Assembly: GCA_024763035.1 (NCBI GenBank)
Contig: JANTGG010000013.1
Coordinates: 1 to 41,035, forward strand
Source of the DNA: Desulfocapsa sp.
GTDB taxonomy: Bacteria; Desulfobacterota; Desulfobulbia; Desulfobulbales; Desulfocapsaceae
Length of the DNA: 41,035 nt
Reading direction: 5' to 3'
Part shown: positions 15,786-36,579 of the stretch, piece by piece
How positions within the stretch are numbered: the first letter of the stretch is position 1
How the letters are laid out: each line of letters starts with the position of its first letter
Notes under the pieces: model-generated
Database searches by the model: none
Seen by the model: only the letters and a program-made list of their open reading frames with translations
What the model was told of the DNA's origin: nothing
Program-made: the position numbers and the translations under genes

Positions 15786-17132
15786 ATGACAACGAAAAAA
15801 ATCATCCTCCGAGATGATGAAATGCCCACCCAATGGTACAATGTAGGACCAGACATCCCCAATGGACTGCTGCCTCCCCTTGATCCGGAAACGAAGGAGC
15901 CCATGGGACCTGAAAAACTGGGGGCTATTTTTCCCATGTCACTCCTTGAGCAGGAGATGTCCGGCGAACGCTTTATTGATATTCCCGAAGAGGTGCTGGA
16001 CGTCTTGAAAATCTGGCGTCCTTCCCCCCTTGTCCGTGCCAGGAATCTTGAACAGGCCATCGGGACCAAGGCAAAAATTTATTTTAAGAATGAAGGGGTC
16101 TCACCGGTCGGCTCTCACAAACCAAACTCTGCCGTCCCACAGGCATACTACAATGCCAAGGAAGGGATTAAACGTCTTTCCACGGAGACAGGTGCCGGTC
16201 AATGGGGCAGTGCCCTCTCCTTTGCCACCCAGAAATTCGGACTCGACTGTAAGGTCTATATGGTTCGTGTCTCCTTTGACCAGAAACCCTACCGTAAATC
16301 CATGATGAAAACCTTCGGCGCCGACATTGTGGCAAGCCCCAGTATGGATACCCATATCGGGCGTCAGATTCGGGAGGAATACCCCGACACTGCCGGCTCT
16401 TTAGGTATTGCCATCTCCGAAGCCATCGAAGATGCCGCCGGACGTGAAGACACTAATTACGCCCTGGGCTCCGTGCTCAATCATGTTATTTTGCACCAGA
16501 GCATTATCGGACTTGAAGCAAAAAAACAGATGGAAATCGCCGGTGACTATCCCGACGTAATTGTTGGCTGCTGCGGCGGCGGATCAAACTTTGCAGGGCT
16601 TGCTGTCCCCTATATTCCCGATTACCTGGAGGGCAGAAAGATTCGCTTTGTGGGAACAGAACCTGCATCCTGCCCGACACTTACCCGCGGGAAACTTGCC
16701 TATGATTTCGGTGATGTTGCCCAGACCACTCCCCTTCTGAACATGTACACTCTTGGACACGACTTTATTCCTCCCGGAATCCATGCCGGTGGACTGCGGT
16801 ACCATGGAATGTCCCCCATCATCTCTGCGCTGGTACGGGAAAAAATCATTGATCCTGTCAAAGTCCATCAGATGGAATGCTTTGAAGCCGGTGTCCTTTT
16901 TGCCCGTGCTGAAGGTATTATACCAGCTCCTGAAACCTGTCATGCCATCCGTGGCGCTATTATTGAAGCCACCCGTGACAAAAATGATCCTAAAACGATC
17001 CTCTTCAACTTCTCGGGACACGGTCTTATCGACATGGCATCCTATGACAAGTATTTTTCAGGTGATCTCCACGATTACGATTACCCCAAAGAGGCCATCG
17101 AAGCATCCATGGCAAAACTGCCAAAGATCTGA
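15786..17132 (+). CDS. Tryptophan synthase beta chain, TrpB2 type
   Basis: A 448-residue PLP enzyme that joins indole and serine to make tryptophan. The PLP lysine is Lys112 in [15 protein letters not shown]. The phosphate-binding loop is [10 protein letters not shown], and [20 protein letters not shown] and [18 protein letters not shown] are typical of the TrpB2 branch, which has a longer N-terminus than TrpB1. ATG 15786 is preceded by AAAAAGGAG with a 5-base gap, which makes it preferable to an in-frame ATG at 15717. No trpA or other trp gene is nearby, which fits TrpB2, often separate from the trp operon and thought to salvage free indole. The carboxypeptidase gene begins 6 bases after its stop. 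The 256 bases before it hold no gene I can support. Confidence 0.92.
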
Positions 17133-18383: not shown

Positions 18384-18803
18384 TACCACCGGGTAGCATT
18401 GTCAGTTTATTTGACACCACACCGGCACCTGCCGAAGACAAACTTCCCTTTCAGCCCCTTCCTTCCCCCACCTCTCCTGCAAATTACGTTTTTGTACTCA
18501 AAGTACCCTCCCCAACACCCTACTTTACCTACAATTAAAGTAACTTGTGAAACACCTCCCCACAAGTAGTTATTTTCTACACACGATTATATTAAAAAAT
18601 GTTATATTGTTTTTTTTGCACCTGTTGCACAGAAAGCATATTACATACTCCTTAGTTATTTCAAACAATTAGCCCTGCAGTGAACAAATTGGCATGTTTA
18701 CTGCTTGCCTATACAGCACAATGCTTTACGCAAAGAATTTTGTCAGTCTACTGCAGCATCCTTATTTTTTGCTGCCTTTTACTTTTCTCTTTTCGGAGGA
18801 CCT
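18384..18803 (+). other. 420-base AT-rich leader region before the selenoprotein gene
   Basis: No gene can be supported here. An inverted repeat (ACTTGTG at 18543 and CACAAGT ending at 18567) could be a weak terminator for the trpB2-carboxypeptidase transcript but lacks a clean T run. The segment from 18570 to 18680 is strongly AT-rich, a likely promoter zone, but I find no well-spaced -35/-10 pair. GGAGGA at 18795-18800 is the ribosome binding site of the next gene. Confidence 0.4.
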
Positions 18804-20141
18804 ATGAAAAAAAACATAAGCAGACTCGTTCCTTTTCTCATCATGGCATCATTTCTGGTGTCAGGATGTAATCAGGATACCAGTTCCACTGTCACCACCG
18901 TAAAACCGGCGATTACAACCCAGGCTGAAAAGCCGCAGGGACCTGTGTACAAAGGAAAGGTTGTCGGCAGATCCAATAAGGCGAAACAGATCTCCATTGC
19001 CGTTGGCAAGGGAAAAGATGCGAAAACCATCATGGTCAGTTTCGATGAAAACACCACCGGCCTGGAACATGCGAAAAAAGGTCACGGAGCCATTATTGCC
19101 TACGAGATGCGGGACGGTGTACCTTTTGCCACGACTATCAAACAGAAACTTGCCAAACTTCCTCAAGGTGTCACGGTTATTTCTCCTCAGGATGTAAAGG
19201 CCCTTATTGATGCAGATAAAGATTTTCTCCTCGTTGACTCACGCCCGGGGAAACGCTATTCCGCATCCCATCTTCCAGGGGCTGTATCCATTCCGGTATG
19301 TGAAATGCAGGAACTTCTGCAGAATCTTCCAAAGCATAAAGACAAACTGCTTATATTTTACTGTGGAGGTCCCACATGAGGTATGAGTCCAAAGTCCGCC
19401 GGTCAGGCGGTCAAAGCCGGTTACAAAAACATTCAGGTAATGCTCGCAGGAGAACCCGCCTGGATTAAAGCAGGATACAGCACCTATGCCAACTACGGCT
19501 TTGTGTGCAGGGGTAACAACGTAATCATCGACCTGCGCAGTCCGGAAAAATCCGCTGCTGCCCGTGTTCCCCGTTCTGTCAACATGCCGTTTGCAAGCTT
19601 TGAAGATACCTACGACGAGATCCCCATAAAAGCCCCCATCGTTCTTTACTCCGATAATGAGGAGGAAACCATCGCTGCCCTGCGAATACTTCAGGCGGAA
19701 GGCTATAAAAAGATATCCCTGATTGAAGGCGGATTTCACGGCTGGAAACGGGTGGGCGGCAGGCTGGTCAAAGGACCGGTGGTCACAGATGTGCACTGGC
19801 AGCGCATCCTTGCCGAAGGTGAAGTCTCACTCGCTGAATTTGAAAAAGCAATGAAGGATCCCAATGAGGCCATCATTCTCGATGTCCGCACAAGAGACGA
19901 GGTAAGTGAAGGGAAAATCGAAATTTCCCAGCATATCCCCCTTGATGAGCTGTGCAAGGAGATGGATCAGTTCATCTGCAATATTAAAGATATGCAGAAA
20001 GGTCAGAAGATCTATATCCACTGCACCACAGGGGCTAGAGCCGAAATGGCATACAAAGAGCTGAAGAAACGTGGTTACAATGCGTCCTACCTTGTTGCAG
20101 AAGTCGAGTGTGACGGCAATGACTGCTCCATAGAAGAGTAA
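18804..20141 (+). CDS. Selenocysteine-containing triple-rhodanese lipoprotein (TGA at 19377 read as Sec)
   Basis: One frame of 445 residues with a single in-frame TGA at 19377-19379 (position 192). Both sides are one rhodanese domain: IFYCGGPT before the TGA and GMSPKSAGQAVKAGYKNIQV after it, where related rhodaneses read CGG-x-x-C-x-x-S-x-KSA. The TGA thus replaces a conserved Cys, and a SECIS-like hairpin follows. Layout: signal peptide with lipobox LVSGC (Cys22); a small beta-rich domain about 48-115; rhodanese 1 about 128-225 (Cys187, Sec192); rhodanese 2 about 238-318, whose active loop YSDNEEET has no Cys; rhodanese 3 about 341-435 with Cys407 in HCTTGARAEMA; and a C-terminal CDGNDC. 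Start chosen for the GGAGGA site and signal. Likely a periplasm-facing sulfurtransferase or persulfide carrier; substrate unknown. A gene caller would split it at 19379/19383. Confidence 0.87.
19377..19410 (+). promoter_or_regulatory. Bacterial SECIS-like element directing selenocysteine insertion
   Basis: The in-frame TGA (19377-19379) is followed by a hairpin: CCGCC at 19396-19400 pairs with GGCGG at 19406-19410, five GC pairs, and the apical loop is GGTCA. A G-C pair (19394/19412) beyond a T-T mismatch could extend it. The loop begins 22 bases after the TGA and opens with GGU, as in the E. coli fdhF SECIS loop recognised by SelB. Bacterial SECIS elements lie inside the coding sequence just after the UGA, as here. 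Structure drawn by eye. Confidence 0.75.
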
Positions 20142-20188
20142 ATTCCTCCTTCCTCCCGGTCCTTTTACACCACAGGACCACCTCCCGG

Positions 20189-20224
20189 GGAAGAGATGTG
20201 CCCGGCACATCTCTTCCTTTTTTT
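20189..20224 (+). terminator. Strong intrinsic terminator after the rhodanese selenoprotein gene
   Basis: GGAAGAGATGTGC at 20189-20201 pairs perfectly with GCACATCTCTTCC at 20205-20217: 13 base pairs with a 3-base loop, followed by seven T (20218-20224). It begins 47 bases after the stop of the selenoprotein gene and separates it from fapA. Confidence 0.93.
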
Positions 20225-20233
20225 ATCTCCATC

Positions 20234-34187: not shown

Positions 34188-35417
34188 TCATATTTCCCTG
34201 TCCCTGTCTAGGGGAACAAGCCCCGGCGATGCCCATGGCAGGATCAGACGAAGGAAGACCGGTGGAAATACAGTAGTCATAAAAGCAATAATAACAAGAA
34301 TTGAAAACAATGTATCGTCAATAATGCCAAGCTCCATCCCAACCGAGGCAATGATAAGTTCCACCGCACCCCGCCCGTTCATGATAATGCCGATAACAGT
34401 TGACTCCTTTCTGGTCAGTCTGCCCGCTGCAGCCCCAATATATACCCCGACAAATTTCCCTGCAACTGCCGCTGCAAAGAGCACAGAAATCATGAGCGGA
34501 TGGGTCTGTAAAATTGAAAAGGTCACATGAAAAGAGAGACTGAAAAAGAAGATCGGTCCGAAAAAACCGTAGGTCACCGAAACAAAACGATCGTTAATTT
34601 TAGCAAACAGCTCCCTGCCGGGGACACTCATCCGCACAAAGAGTCCGGCTATATACGCCCCGATAATGATATGTAATCCGGCAACCTCGGCACAGAAACC
34701 AAAAAGCAGAGCGGTGATAAGAGCAAAAGTAAAGCCCTTCGCCTCCCGCACTGCCAGATGCGGCCCCAGAAATGGAAAAGCCCAGAATCCCACACAGGCA
34801 ACCACTGCAAAGAAAAGAGCCGCCTTACCTACGGAGAGTAAAACAACAGTCAGGGAAAAACCGCTTCCTGCCGAACTCATATCAACCAGTGCCGTAAAAA
34901 GGGTGAGAGCGATGATATCGTCAATCACCCCTGCTCCCATGGCAACCGGAGCAACCCGATACCGGTTCAGACCAAGATCATGGAGAACGCGGGCACTGAC
35001 AGCTATGGCAGTAATGGAAAGAGCCTGCCCGATAAACAGTGCCTGAAGAAGAGAGAGACCAAAAGTAAGGGAAAGGAAGAATCCGACAATAAAGGGAACA
35101 AGATACCCGGCTACACCCACTTGCACAGCCTGGCGTTTCACCCGTCGTAAATGGGAGAAGTCGGACTCAAGCCCCGCATAAAACATAAGAAAAAAAACAC
35201 CGAGTTCTGCCAGCACATCAAGGGTTGCGTCCGGTTGGATAATACCAAGAAGGGATGGACCAAAGATAATTCCGGCAAGGAGCTCGCCAAGGAGGGGGGG
35301 CTGGCGAATACGGCGGCAGATAACGCCCGAACACCAGATTATAACCATCACCAGCAACAGATTCAGCGTTTCACTGCGATGAAAAACAATTTCTTCAACA
35401 AAGGGAGGAAGATTCAA
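34188..35417 (-). CDS. Cation:proton antiporter, CPA2/Kef type membrane domain
   Basis: A 409-residue integral membrane protein with about 11-12 hydrophobic helices. CPA2 features are [29 protein letters not shown], the discontinuous-helix segment [19 protein letters not shown], and the ion-binding pair Asp166-Asp167 in [14 protein letters not shown]. It has only the transport domain; no TrkA-N or TrkA-C regulatory domain follows. The paired aspartates are the pattern of electrogenic Na+/H+-type exchange in this superfamily, but the ion cannot be fixed by eye. It ends 86 bases upstream of lemA on the same strand and starts 31 bases after the response regulator. Confidence 0.9.
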
Positions 35418-35448
35418 ATTGATTCCTGCCTGCGATTGTTATTGGAGA

Positions 35449-36579
35449 TTAATCACCCCACTTTTCCTTGACCTGCTGAAACTTGTCAAGGTTGGCAAAA
35501 AAGGCATCCACCACCACCGGATCAAGGATATTTCCAGAAGCTTCCCGAATGATCTGCAGACATTCTTCCTCGGGAAAAGCGGACTTATACGGTCTGCTGC
35601 TGCCCACCGCATCGTAAATATCGACAATGGTGACAATACGGGCAGGCATGGGAATATTTTCACCCTTCAAACCATCCGGATACCCCGTGCCATCCCAGCG
35701 TTCATGATGGGAATAGGCGATAACTCTTGCCATCTGCAGAAGATCAGAATCGGACACGATCCCTTCAAGATCTCTACCGGCTTCCCCGGTAATCTCCCGA
35801 AGATCCTGAGTGTTCAAAGGATCAAGCAGCTCTTTTCCAAGCTGACAATGTTCCTTCATCTGTACCCACTCACCGGGTGTCAGGGCTCCGGGTTTCAACA
35901 ATATCTTATCGGAAATGCCAATTTTCCCCACATCATGCAGGGCTGAACTCAGTGCCATATTGTCAGCATCGACTTCGGAAAATCCGAGATACTTGGCGAG
36001 AATTTTGGTGTAACAGCTCACCCGGATAATATGGCGACCGGTTTCCTTGTCCCGTACCTCGGATGCTTTTCCCAGTCGCAGAATGACCTGCATCCGGGTA
36101 TCGCGCAGTAACTGATTGGAACGTTCGAGGGCAGCAGTTCTTCTGCGCACCTTCTCTTCCAGTTCAAGACGGTAACTCCGGTTTTCCTTGATAAGCCGTG
36201 CCTTTTCAAAGGCCTGTTCCACAGCAAAACGGAGATTCACAAAATCTTCAATGGGTTTTAACAGATAACTCCAGGCACCCCGGTTCATTGCCTCAACGGC
36301 GTCACCCACAAAGCCGGTACCGGAGATGACGATAATAGGGAGATCCGGGAAATTCTCATGCACATCCTGCAGTACATCCAGTCCATCAACCTCGGGCATG
36401 CGCAAATCAACCAGTACCATGTCAGGCAGGTCAGCATGTATCATTTCCAGCCCTACCCTGCCATTCTCTGCCTCCTGCACTTTATAGCCGCAGTCTTCGA
36501 GATACAGTCGATAGGAATGACGAATTAAACTTTCATCGTCAATGGTGAGTATGACAGGTGTCTGCTTATCCATGTACAT
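35449..36579 (-). CDS. Response regulator with HD-GYP phosphodiesterase domain
   Basis: A 376-residue REC-HD-GYP protein. REC: acidic pocket TIDDESLIR, phospho-acceptor Asp58 in LVDLRMPEVDG, and KPIED (Lys108). A coiled-coil linker (about 125-165) leads to the HD-GYP domain: GRHIIRVSCYTKILAKYLGF, His215-Asp216 in ALHDVGKIG, KEHCQLG, SHHERWDGTGYPDGLKG (GYP at 299-301), and IVDIYDAV. All metal and GYP residues look intact, so it should hydrolyse cyclic di-GMP (or cGAMP) when phosphorylated. No histidine kinase is nearby. ATG 36579 and ATG 36573 are both possible starts. Divergent from the giant membrane protein gene. Confidence 0.94.
   Translation of the reverse strand: MYMDKQTPVILTIDDESLIRHSYRLYLEDCGYKVQEAENGRVGLEMIHADLPDMVLVDLRMPEVDGLDVLQDVHENFPDLPIIVISGTGFVGDAVEAMNRGAWSYLLKPIEDFVNLRFAVEQAFEKARLIKENRSYRLELEEKVRRRTAALERSNQLLRDTRMQVILRLGKASEVRDKETGRHIIRVSCYTKILAKYLGFSEVDADNMALSSALHDVGKIGISDKILLKPGALTPGEWVQMKEHCQLGKELLDPLNTQDLREITGEAGRDLEGIVSDSDLLQMARVIAYSHHERWDGTGYPDGLKGENIPMPARIVTIVDIYDAVGSSRPYKSAFPEEECLQIIREASGNILDPVVVDAFFANLDKFQQVKEKWGD

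Follow-up and report, generated by a model that had tools for sequence, protein, structure and literature searches.

An in-frame TGA in a triple-rhodanese lipoprotein gene of Desulfocapsa sp.: a probable selenoprotein with a possible role in sulfane-sulfur relay

Five forms of rhodanese selenoproteins have been catalogued, among them form 1, which carries the motif UxxS and is represented by WP_010941598.1 (PMC13188914, Table 1), an entry credited to Zhang and Gladyshev (2005) in a 2022 review (PMC9312934), and TsoB, which carries the motif UxxxxU and is listed as rhodanese/DsbD fusion-like (PMC13188914, table). The Psr operon of Desulfurivibrio dismutans, described as upregulated in sulfur disproportionation, encodes RS06465, a triple-rhodanese protein predicted to be a lipoprotein (PMC12142623); the word selenocysteine does not occur in the consulted text of that paper. 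In D. alkaliphilus, the rhodanese DaAHT2_0417 is located beside the psr operon, and the passage dealing with it cites the suggestion that it passes sulfur to PsrA (PMC5016858). Furthermore, a Geobacter cluster was reported to contain the rhodanese-like lipoprotein ExtH, and loss of extI was found to affect selenite and tellurite reduction (PMC5877670, PMC6148476). For the SseA rhodanese-like proteins, which belong to another family, the consulted part of a survey saw no apparent link to sulfur disproportionation (PMC12998232). In a search of titles and abstract openings, which left subscription papers and supplements outside its scope, no description of a triple-rhodanese selenoprotein was found. 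The adjacent rhodanese tags UWK_03368 and UWK_03369 of Desulfocapsa sulfexigens, which appear in the consulted part of PMC3739170, could be halves of one such gene.

The gene analyzed here lies on the forward strand of a window of 41,035 nucleotides from Desulfocapsa sp., the window being the whole stretch of DNA that was analysed. A preliminary description had proposed a hidden selenoprotein encoded by one frame that is split by a single TGA, and this reading of the frame proved correct: the TGA at 19377–19379 (residue 192) is the sole break in the frame 18804–20141, which comprises 445 residues, ends with TAA and aligns over residues 1–445 with the closest homologs. A likely ribosome-binding site, GGAGG (18795–18799, + strand, identified by eye), is found 4 nt 5′ of the ATG. 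Simple gene calling, however, yields two ORFs of 224 and 252 aa, one ending at 19379 and one spanning 19383–20141, which is what would be seen if the TGA were a true stop that either separates two adjacent genes or marks a decayed pseudogene. The same reading is favored by 13 other TGAs in the window that are also flanked on both sides by open stretches of at least 90 codons, those at 17130 and 22135 being the end of a gene before the next one. Long open frames around a TGA are therefore not rare by themselves, and what exceeds chance is the conservation. A true stop would, on the other hand, cut the first rhodanese domain of the protein in half.

Three stretches of the protein match the Pfam Rhodanese model, the best of which (residues 127–222, E 4e-40 with Cys put at 192) spans the TGA. 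Rhodanese domain 1 (19170–19487), delimited by Pfam, alignment and model, contains the loop C187-GGPT-U192-GMS, so that the TGA falls inside the active-site loop and the domain continues behind it (YCGGPT-U-GMSPKSA), just as had been described beforehand. Cys187 (19362–19364) occupies the canonical position of the rhodanese catalytic Cys and is present in every TGA-bearing loop of the homologs from protein searches; the residue encoded by the TGA follows five residues past this likely sulfur-accepting Cys, again in agreement with the preliminary description. Alignment and model also support the earlier statement that the second domain (19494–19778, Pfam, alignment and model) has no catalytic Cys, showing VLYSDNEEE instead, and that the third (19821–20093) carries C407-TTGA-R412, a CX4R loop with invariant residues in the alignment. 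The general rule for rhodanese active-site loops is CX4R, and when the three domains are held against it, domain 1 has the C but U in place of R, domain 2 has no C and domain 3 has both; Sec192 aligns with the Arg of the CX4R loop of the protein's own domain 3. At the C-terminus, the alignment reveals a C436-x4-C441 pair (20109–20126), which is shared by many homologs and replaced by CDC or missing in others, and whose two Cys could possibly act as resolving thiols.

Upstream of the rhodanese domains, the gene encodes a signal peptide with the lipobox VSGC (18804–18869, motif by eye), for which the lipobox rule predicts lipidation at Cys22; a VSGC-like ending of the signal peptide is common in close homologs and absent from several distant ones. 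It is followed by an N-terminal OB-like β-barrel (residues 48–114; 18945–19145), seen in AlphaFold2 models and matched in the PDB. That the protein combines a lipoprotein signal with three rhodanese domains is thus highly probable, and the mature product, including the OB-like domain, is predicted to be lipid-anchored in the envelope. The assumption that such a three-domain, lipid-anchored architecture is unusual did not hold, as the same layout turned up under many Desulfobulbales titles and outside this order as well. Just 3′ of the gene (20180–20225), an inverted repeat rich in G+C precedes a run of T and looks terminator-like by eye.

Relatives were compared at the position of the TGA. Among 50 homologous loci, which include the window copy and 20 selected stretches from matches without a locus, the aligned column contains TGA in 42, Cys in seven and Ala in one, four of the eight non-TGA loci having a different loop and aligning poorly. 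Matches to the protein at E ≤0.001 were obtained in 51 of 56 related genomes, the weak ones being other rhodaneses, and in a sample of the phylum a match at 1e-20 was present in 52 of 394 genomes; the phylum-sample loci examined (part of the 52 genomes) contain a C-x4-U or C-x4-C loop except for L206, L219, and L223. A TGA-specific DNA pattern, which requires the TGA and fixes C187, G188, G189, T191, U192, G193, and M194, retrieved 109 stretches from GTDB genomes. Of the 80 that were fetched, 79 hold a frame that is homologous to the gene and carries the Sec motif, with contig ends truncating some of them. The titles of the carriers include Desulfogranum marinum, D. mediterraneum, Desulfofustis glycolicus, Desulfopila aestuarii, Desulfosediminicola flagellatus, Desulfoprunum benzoelyticum, strain NaphS2, and Nitrospirae MAGs. 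In a search of plasmids, 71 records were matched, none of which had one place covering 80% of the protein. That so many independently sequenced genomes share this TGA excludes a sequencing error, as the preliminary description had left to be checked. Its statement that the TGA is located at a conserved Cys stood in part: relatives do contain Sec or Cys in this column, but Cys at position 192 is found only within this subfamily, and the usual sulfur-accepting residue is Cys187.

For 83 proteins, 70 with U and 13 with C at this position, a quick tree requires at least eight changes between the two residues, five of them forced by starred branches, while 20 of its 80 inner branches are open. The tree omits L037, L042, L057, L065, L066, L068, L069, L070, and the loci above L223, as well as the loci from the DNA pattern, rows without the motif C.G..[UC]..[STC], and identical rows. 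In 12 ortholog pairs, several of them with saturated dS, uncorrected pN/pS amounted to 0.15–0.31 before the TGA and to 0.15–0.22 after it; since the ratio after the TGA is as low as before, the downstream half is kept as protein. Such purifying selection, alike on both sides, speaks against a true stop, and so does the occurrence of the same TGA across many genera and its exchange with Cys.

Published rules for the bacterial SECIS element (bSECIS) ask for a loop of 3–9 nt with a G in its first two positions, located 16–37 nt from the UGA, and for an energy of ≤-7.5 kcal/mol (PMC13188914). The hairpin CCGCC-GGUCA-GGCGG (19396–19410, + strand) of the window gene lies within these rules, with a 5-nt loop (GGUCA), the apical loop 21 nt past the UGA, and an energy of -9.0 kcal/mol. 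At gathering scores, Rfam gave no match in the window. As the fold of the single sequence was not significant (z -0.17) and therefore uninformative, a comparative test was used. A hairpin of ≤-4.5 kcal/mol at 19–23 nt was present in all 127 distinct Sec 60-mers, with a bare hairpin of ≤-7.5 kcal/mol in only 52 of them, and in none of the 13 Cys versions (one of originally 14 Cys rows, L038, is a Sec mis-hit); the same hairpin criterion was found after 42 of the 1480 TGAs of the window, counted in any frame on both strands and including the Sec codon itself. None of the 127 Sec sequences lacks any of the four core stem pairs, the outermost of which is CG in 112, TA in seven, GC in six and TG in two, whereas in the Cys sequences the outermost pair is formed in four of 13, the innermost in six and the middle two in 12; the middle two pairs also encode conserved residues. 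For a stem of six pairs, 106 Sec genes showed 4.88 pairs compared to 3.45 after codon shuffling (sd 0.07), whereas four Cys genes showed no excess (3.25 observed, 3.33 expected). L041 (Sec) and L180 (Cys) form a sister pair from two genomes of the same genus, and here the hairpin changes along with the codon. SelD, a known selenoprotein, has only a weak hairpin by the same measure (-3.0), so this measure is not universal.

Termination at residue 192 is difficult to reconcile with a hairpin that follows each of the Sec codons examined and none of the Cys codons. Based on selection, the U/C tree, and the hairpin evidence, pseudogene and true stop were rejected, and we assign this reading hardly any probability. 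Judged from the comparative sequence data, TGA 192 can be taken with near certainty to encode selenocysteine.

The genome from which the window originates (92% complete) was checked for the selenocysteine machinery, and selA, selB, selC, and selD, which the preliminary description had named as genes to look for, are all present. One Rfam match to tRNA-Sec exceeds the cut-off with 74.8 bits and is called tRNA-SeC with the anticodon tca (UCA) by ARAGORN, while 11 weaker matches stay below the cut-off; five of 14 control genomes pass it as well. SelB, SelA, and SelD yielded one match each above cut-off, compared to two, one, and two of the 14 controls, respectively, and the SelD gene has its own in-frame TGA. 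Among 54 genomes chosen from the homolog lists, SelB was above cut-off in 52, and was not above cut-off in the Sec-form genomes G017 and G029 (88% and 94% complete). The idea that Cys forms are due to loss of SelB was rejected, because all 11 genomes picked as Cys-form keep it. Both the retention of SelB by Cys forms and the two Sec-form genomes below the cut-off count against the reading proposed here.

Four candidate rhodanese selenoproteins are encoded in the source genome; they differ in where Sec is located, and a bSECIS-like hairpin accompanies each of them. A second C-x4-U rhodanese gene, on contig G000:C11 (L245, approximately 35055–35693, - strand), encodes two rhodanese domains with FYCMGPR-U-PYS and has its hairpin at 22 nt. 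On G000:C31 (L253, 15371–15652), a LYCAU-type rhodanese, form 3 by motif, contains an in-frame TGA with a hairpin at 22 nt. A rhodanese joined to a region that is ferritin- or rubrerythrin-like by eye is encoded on G000:C14 (L246, L250; 23129–23407, - strand), with Sec at the position of the catalytic Cys (VY-U-HSGVRS) and a hairpin at 19 nt; near it, a protein that is ArsC-like by eye contains RKG-U-KSC with a hairpin at 23 nt.

AlphaFold2 with a 39-row alignment returned a model with a mean pLDDT of 86 and a pTM of 0.76, in which a five-stranded barrel (48–114) precedes the three rhodanese domains and a hairpin that carries C436 and C441 lies at the C-terminus. As 38 of the rows stem from the TGA pattern, C187, G188, G189, T191, U192, G193, and M194 are invariant by construction; C407, G410, and R412, which the search pattern does not fix, are invariant as well. 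Single rhodanese folds match the PDB well (3ilm, rmsd 1.5 over 95 columns). For the whole model, the 50 matches listed comprise only multi- or single-rhodanese proteins at low global TM, which means that no template supports the relative arrangement of the domains. Neither the window protein nor any of the three relatives that were scanned reached the cut-off of an NCBIfam model.

When modelled alone, the barrel had its best PDB match in CusF (3e6z, E 6e-4, TM 0.67), and SilF was matched too. This similarity would fit a role in metal(loid) handling, for example of selenite, tellurite, mercury or copper, in which the OB domain with its likeness to CusF would be the metal module, and the ExtH cluster of Geobacter, with the effect of extI loss mentioned above, points in the same direction. 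However, the match reflects a common fold at a modest score, and the invariant or nearly invariant residues of the OB domain (Gly, Phe, Thr, Pro, Ser, Lys, Ala, Val) form no evident metal site, which makes such a function improbable.

A link to sulfur metabolism had been suggested in the preliminary description; it receives support from the neighborhoods of some relatives and from published psr operons, but not from the window's own neighbors. By eye, the latter are trpB-like, D-Ala-D-Ala carboxypeptidase-like, DUF342-like, sbcD-like, and sbcC-like, and no Psr or other sulfur-related genes were seen next to the gene in the window. Of the relatives, the neighborhoods of L073, L217, and L142 were analyzed with Pfam and the others were judged by eye. 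The Sec form L073 is preceded by genes for a member of the NarJ/TorD family (PF02613), a molybdopterin enzyme that is nearest to PhsA (441 bits, below the cut-off of 694), and an FeS subunit, and L138 has similar genes by eye. At the Cys form L217, genes for a LysR regulator, an outer-membrane barrel (DUF3373), the triple rhodanese, a PhsA-like enzyme (520 bits, cut-off 694), and NrfD are found, a neighborhood that L221 and L222 resemble by eye. L142 is accompanied by DsrE, an FAD/FeS protein (HdrA-like by eye), and a Sulf_transp protein. At many other homolog loci, none of these sulfur-type neighbors was seen. In genome G038, PsrA-, PsrB-, and PsrC-like genes are followed by a three-rhodanese lipoprotein (L264; all by eye). 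Domain 1 of L264 reads CGGLAU and domain 2 CGGHHC, and the gene has a hairpin of its own (-9.0); L268 shows the same layout. These Psr-linked homologs are only 27–28% identical to the window protein over the first matched piece. A second triple rhodanese of G038 (L263) has Sec in domain 2 instead of domain 1. The rhodanese next to psr may have been annotated in truncated form in the published record. Second rhodanese genes were also observed beside the triple rhodaneses L052 (G054:C38, same strand) and L226 (G036:C6, opposite strand, CKGPKC).

According to comparative genomics, UGA 192 is almost certainly decoded as Sec by SelB, tRNA-Sec, and the downstream bSECIS hairpin. In a working model of the function, polysulfide or thiosulfate would donate a sulfane sulfur to Cys187, which would carry it as a persulfide, and Sec192, a fast nucleophile in the same loop, might either pass this sulfur on or release it as sulfide while a selenylsulfide forms between Cys187 and Sec192. 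A partner might then receive sulfur or electrons by way of domain 3 and/or the C-terminal Cys pair; in some related operons, this partner could be a Psr/Phs-like molybdoenzyme. Overall, the protein would serve bacteria that reduce or disproportionate sulfur, capturing and relaying sulfane sulfur in their envelope. Given its residues, the neighborhoods of its relatives, and the published operons, we consider capture and relay by the Cys187/Sec192 pair the reading to be preferred, with some reserve, as the selenocysteine claim is shared with functional rivals. One of these holds that C187 and U192 form a thiol-disulfide or persulfide reductase acting on partner proteins or envelope thiols, with no sulfur relay involved. 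In line with this, C-x4-U and C-x4-C replace each other like a redox pair, TsoB with its UxxxxU motif weakly matches domain 1 (51.7 bits, cut-off 805), and the consulted part of PMC13188914 states that most uncharacterised selenoproteins are thought to be redox proteins. Nevertheless, the canonical loop is kept in domain 3 and some neighborhoods of relatives point to a sulfur-compound substrate, so that a reductase is possible and distinctly less probable than sulfane-sulfur relay.

Extending the relay model, we tentatively propose that the replacement of the loop Arg by Sec or Cys could turn a sulfurtransferase into a selenium-dependent module that cleaves persulfides or polysulfides, serving as a lipid-anchored auxiliary of Psr/Phs-type sulfur respiration in parts of the phylum and in Nitrospirae MAGs, although we regard this as doubtful. 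If it were true, part of environmental polysulfide/S0 reduction and disproportionation would depend on selenium, by way of a family that stays below the NCBIfam cut-offs. The relay model itself would tie selenium to the handling of sulfane sulfur in the envelope, a step of sulfur disproportionation. The family occurs in many Desulfobulbales genomes, including several cultured species, and its genes come out of plain gene calling as two apparent rhodaneses each, as was demonstrated for the window gene and for L243; counts of sulfurtransferases in sulfur disproportionators could consequently be wrong and the key residue missed. L041 and L180 provide a natural experiment with Sec and Cys versions, in which the hairpin is gone where the codon changed.

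Compared to the known systems, the window protein seems to fit form 1 of the rhodanese selenoproteins as far as motif and description go: like this form it is a PF00581 rhodanese with one Sec, here as U192-G-M-S195 (UxxS). NF041203 (rhodanese_LYCAU, form 3) is likewise a rhodanese model with Sec in the loop region, but its catalogued motif is CxU, whereas the window protein has Sec at C+5 and scores 80.1 bits against a cut-off of 115. The same holds for NF045694 (TsoB, form 5), a further rhodanese model with Sec in the loop region, as its UxxxxU differs from C187-x4-U192 and the score given above is far from its cut-off. ExtH of Geobacter (GSU2940, 49 kDa), compared by description, resembles the window protein in size and in being a rhodanese lipoprotein, and has LysR and outer-membrane barrel genes nearby as at the Cys form L217; unlike the window protein, it is not described as a selenoprotein in the consulted parts of PMC5877670 and PMC6148476. 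The psr-linked L264 also has Sec at C+5 of domain 1, but differs in its identity of 28%, in a match that starts at residue 131 with no matching OB-like domain, in a C-x4-C that is also present in domain 2, and in the position of its gene in a psr operon. RS06465 of D. dismutans, as described in the consulted part of PMC12142623, shares with the window protein the lipoprotein signal (here assigned by eye) and the three rhodanese domains.
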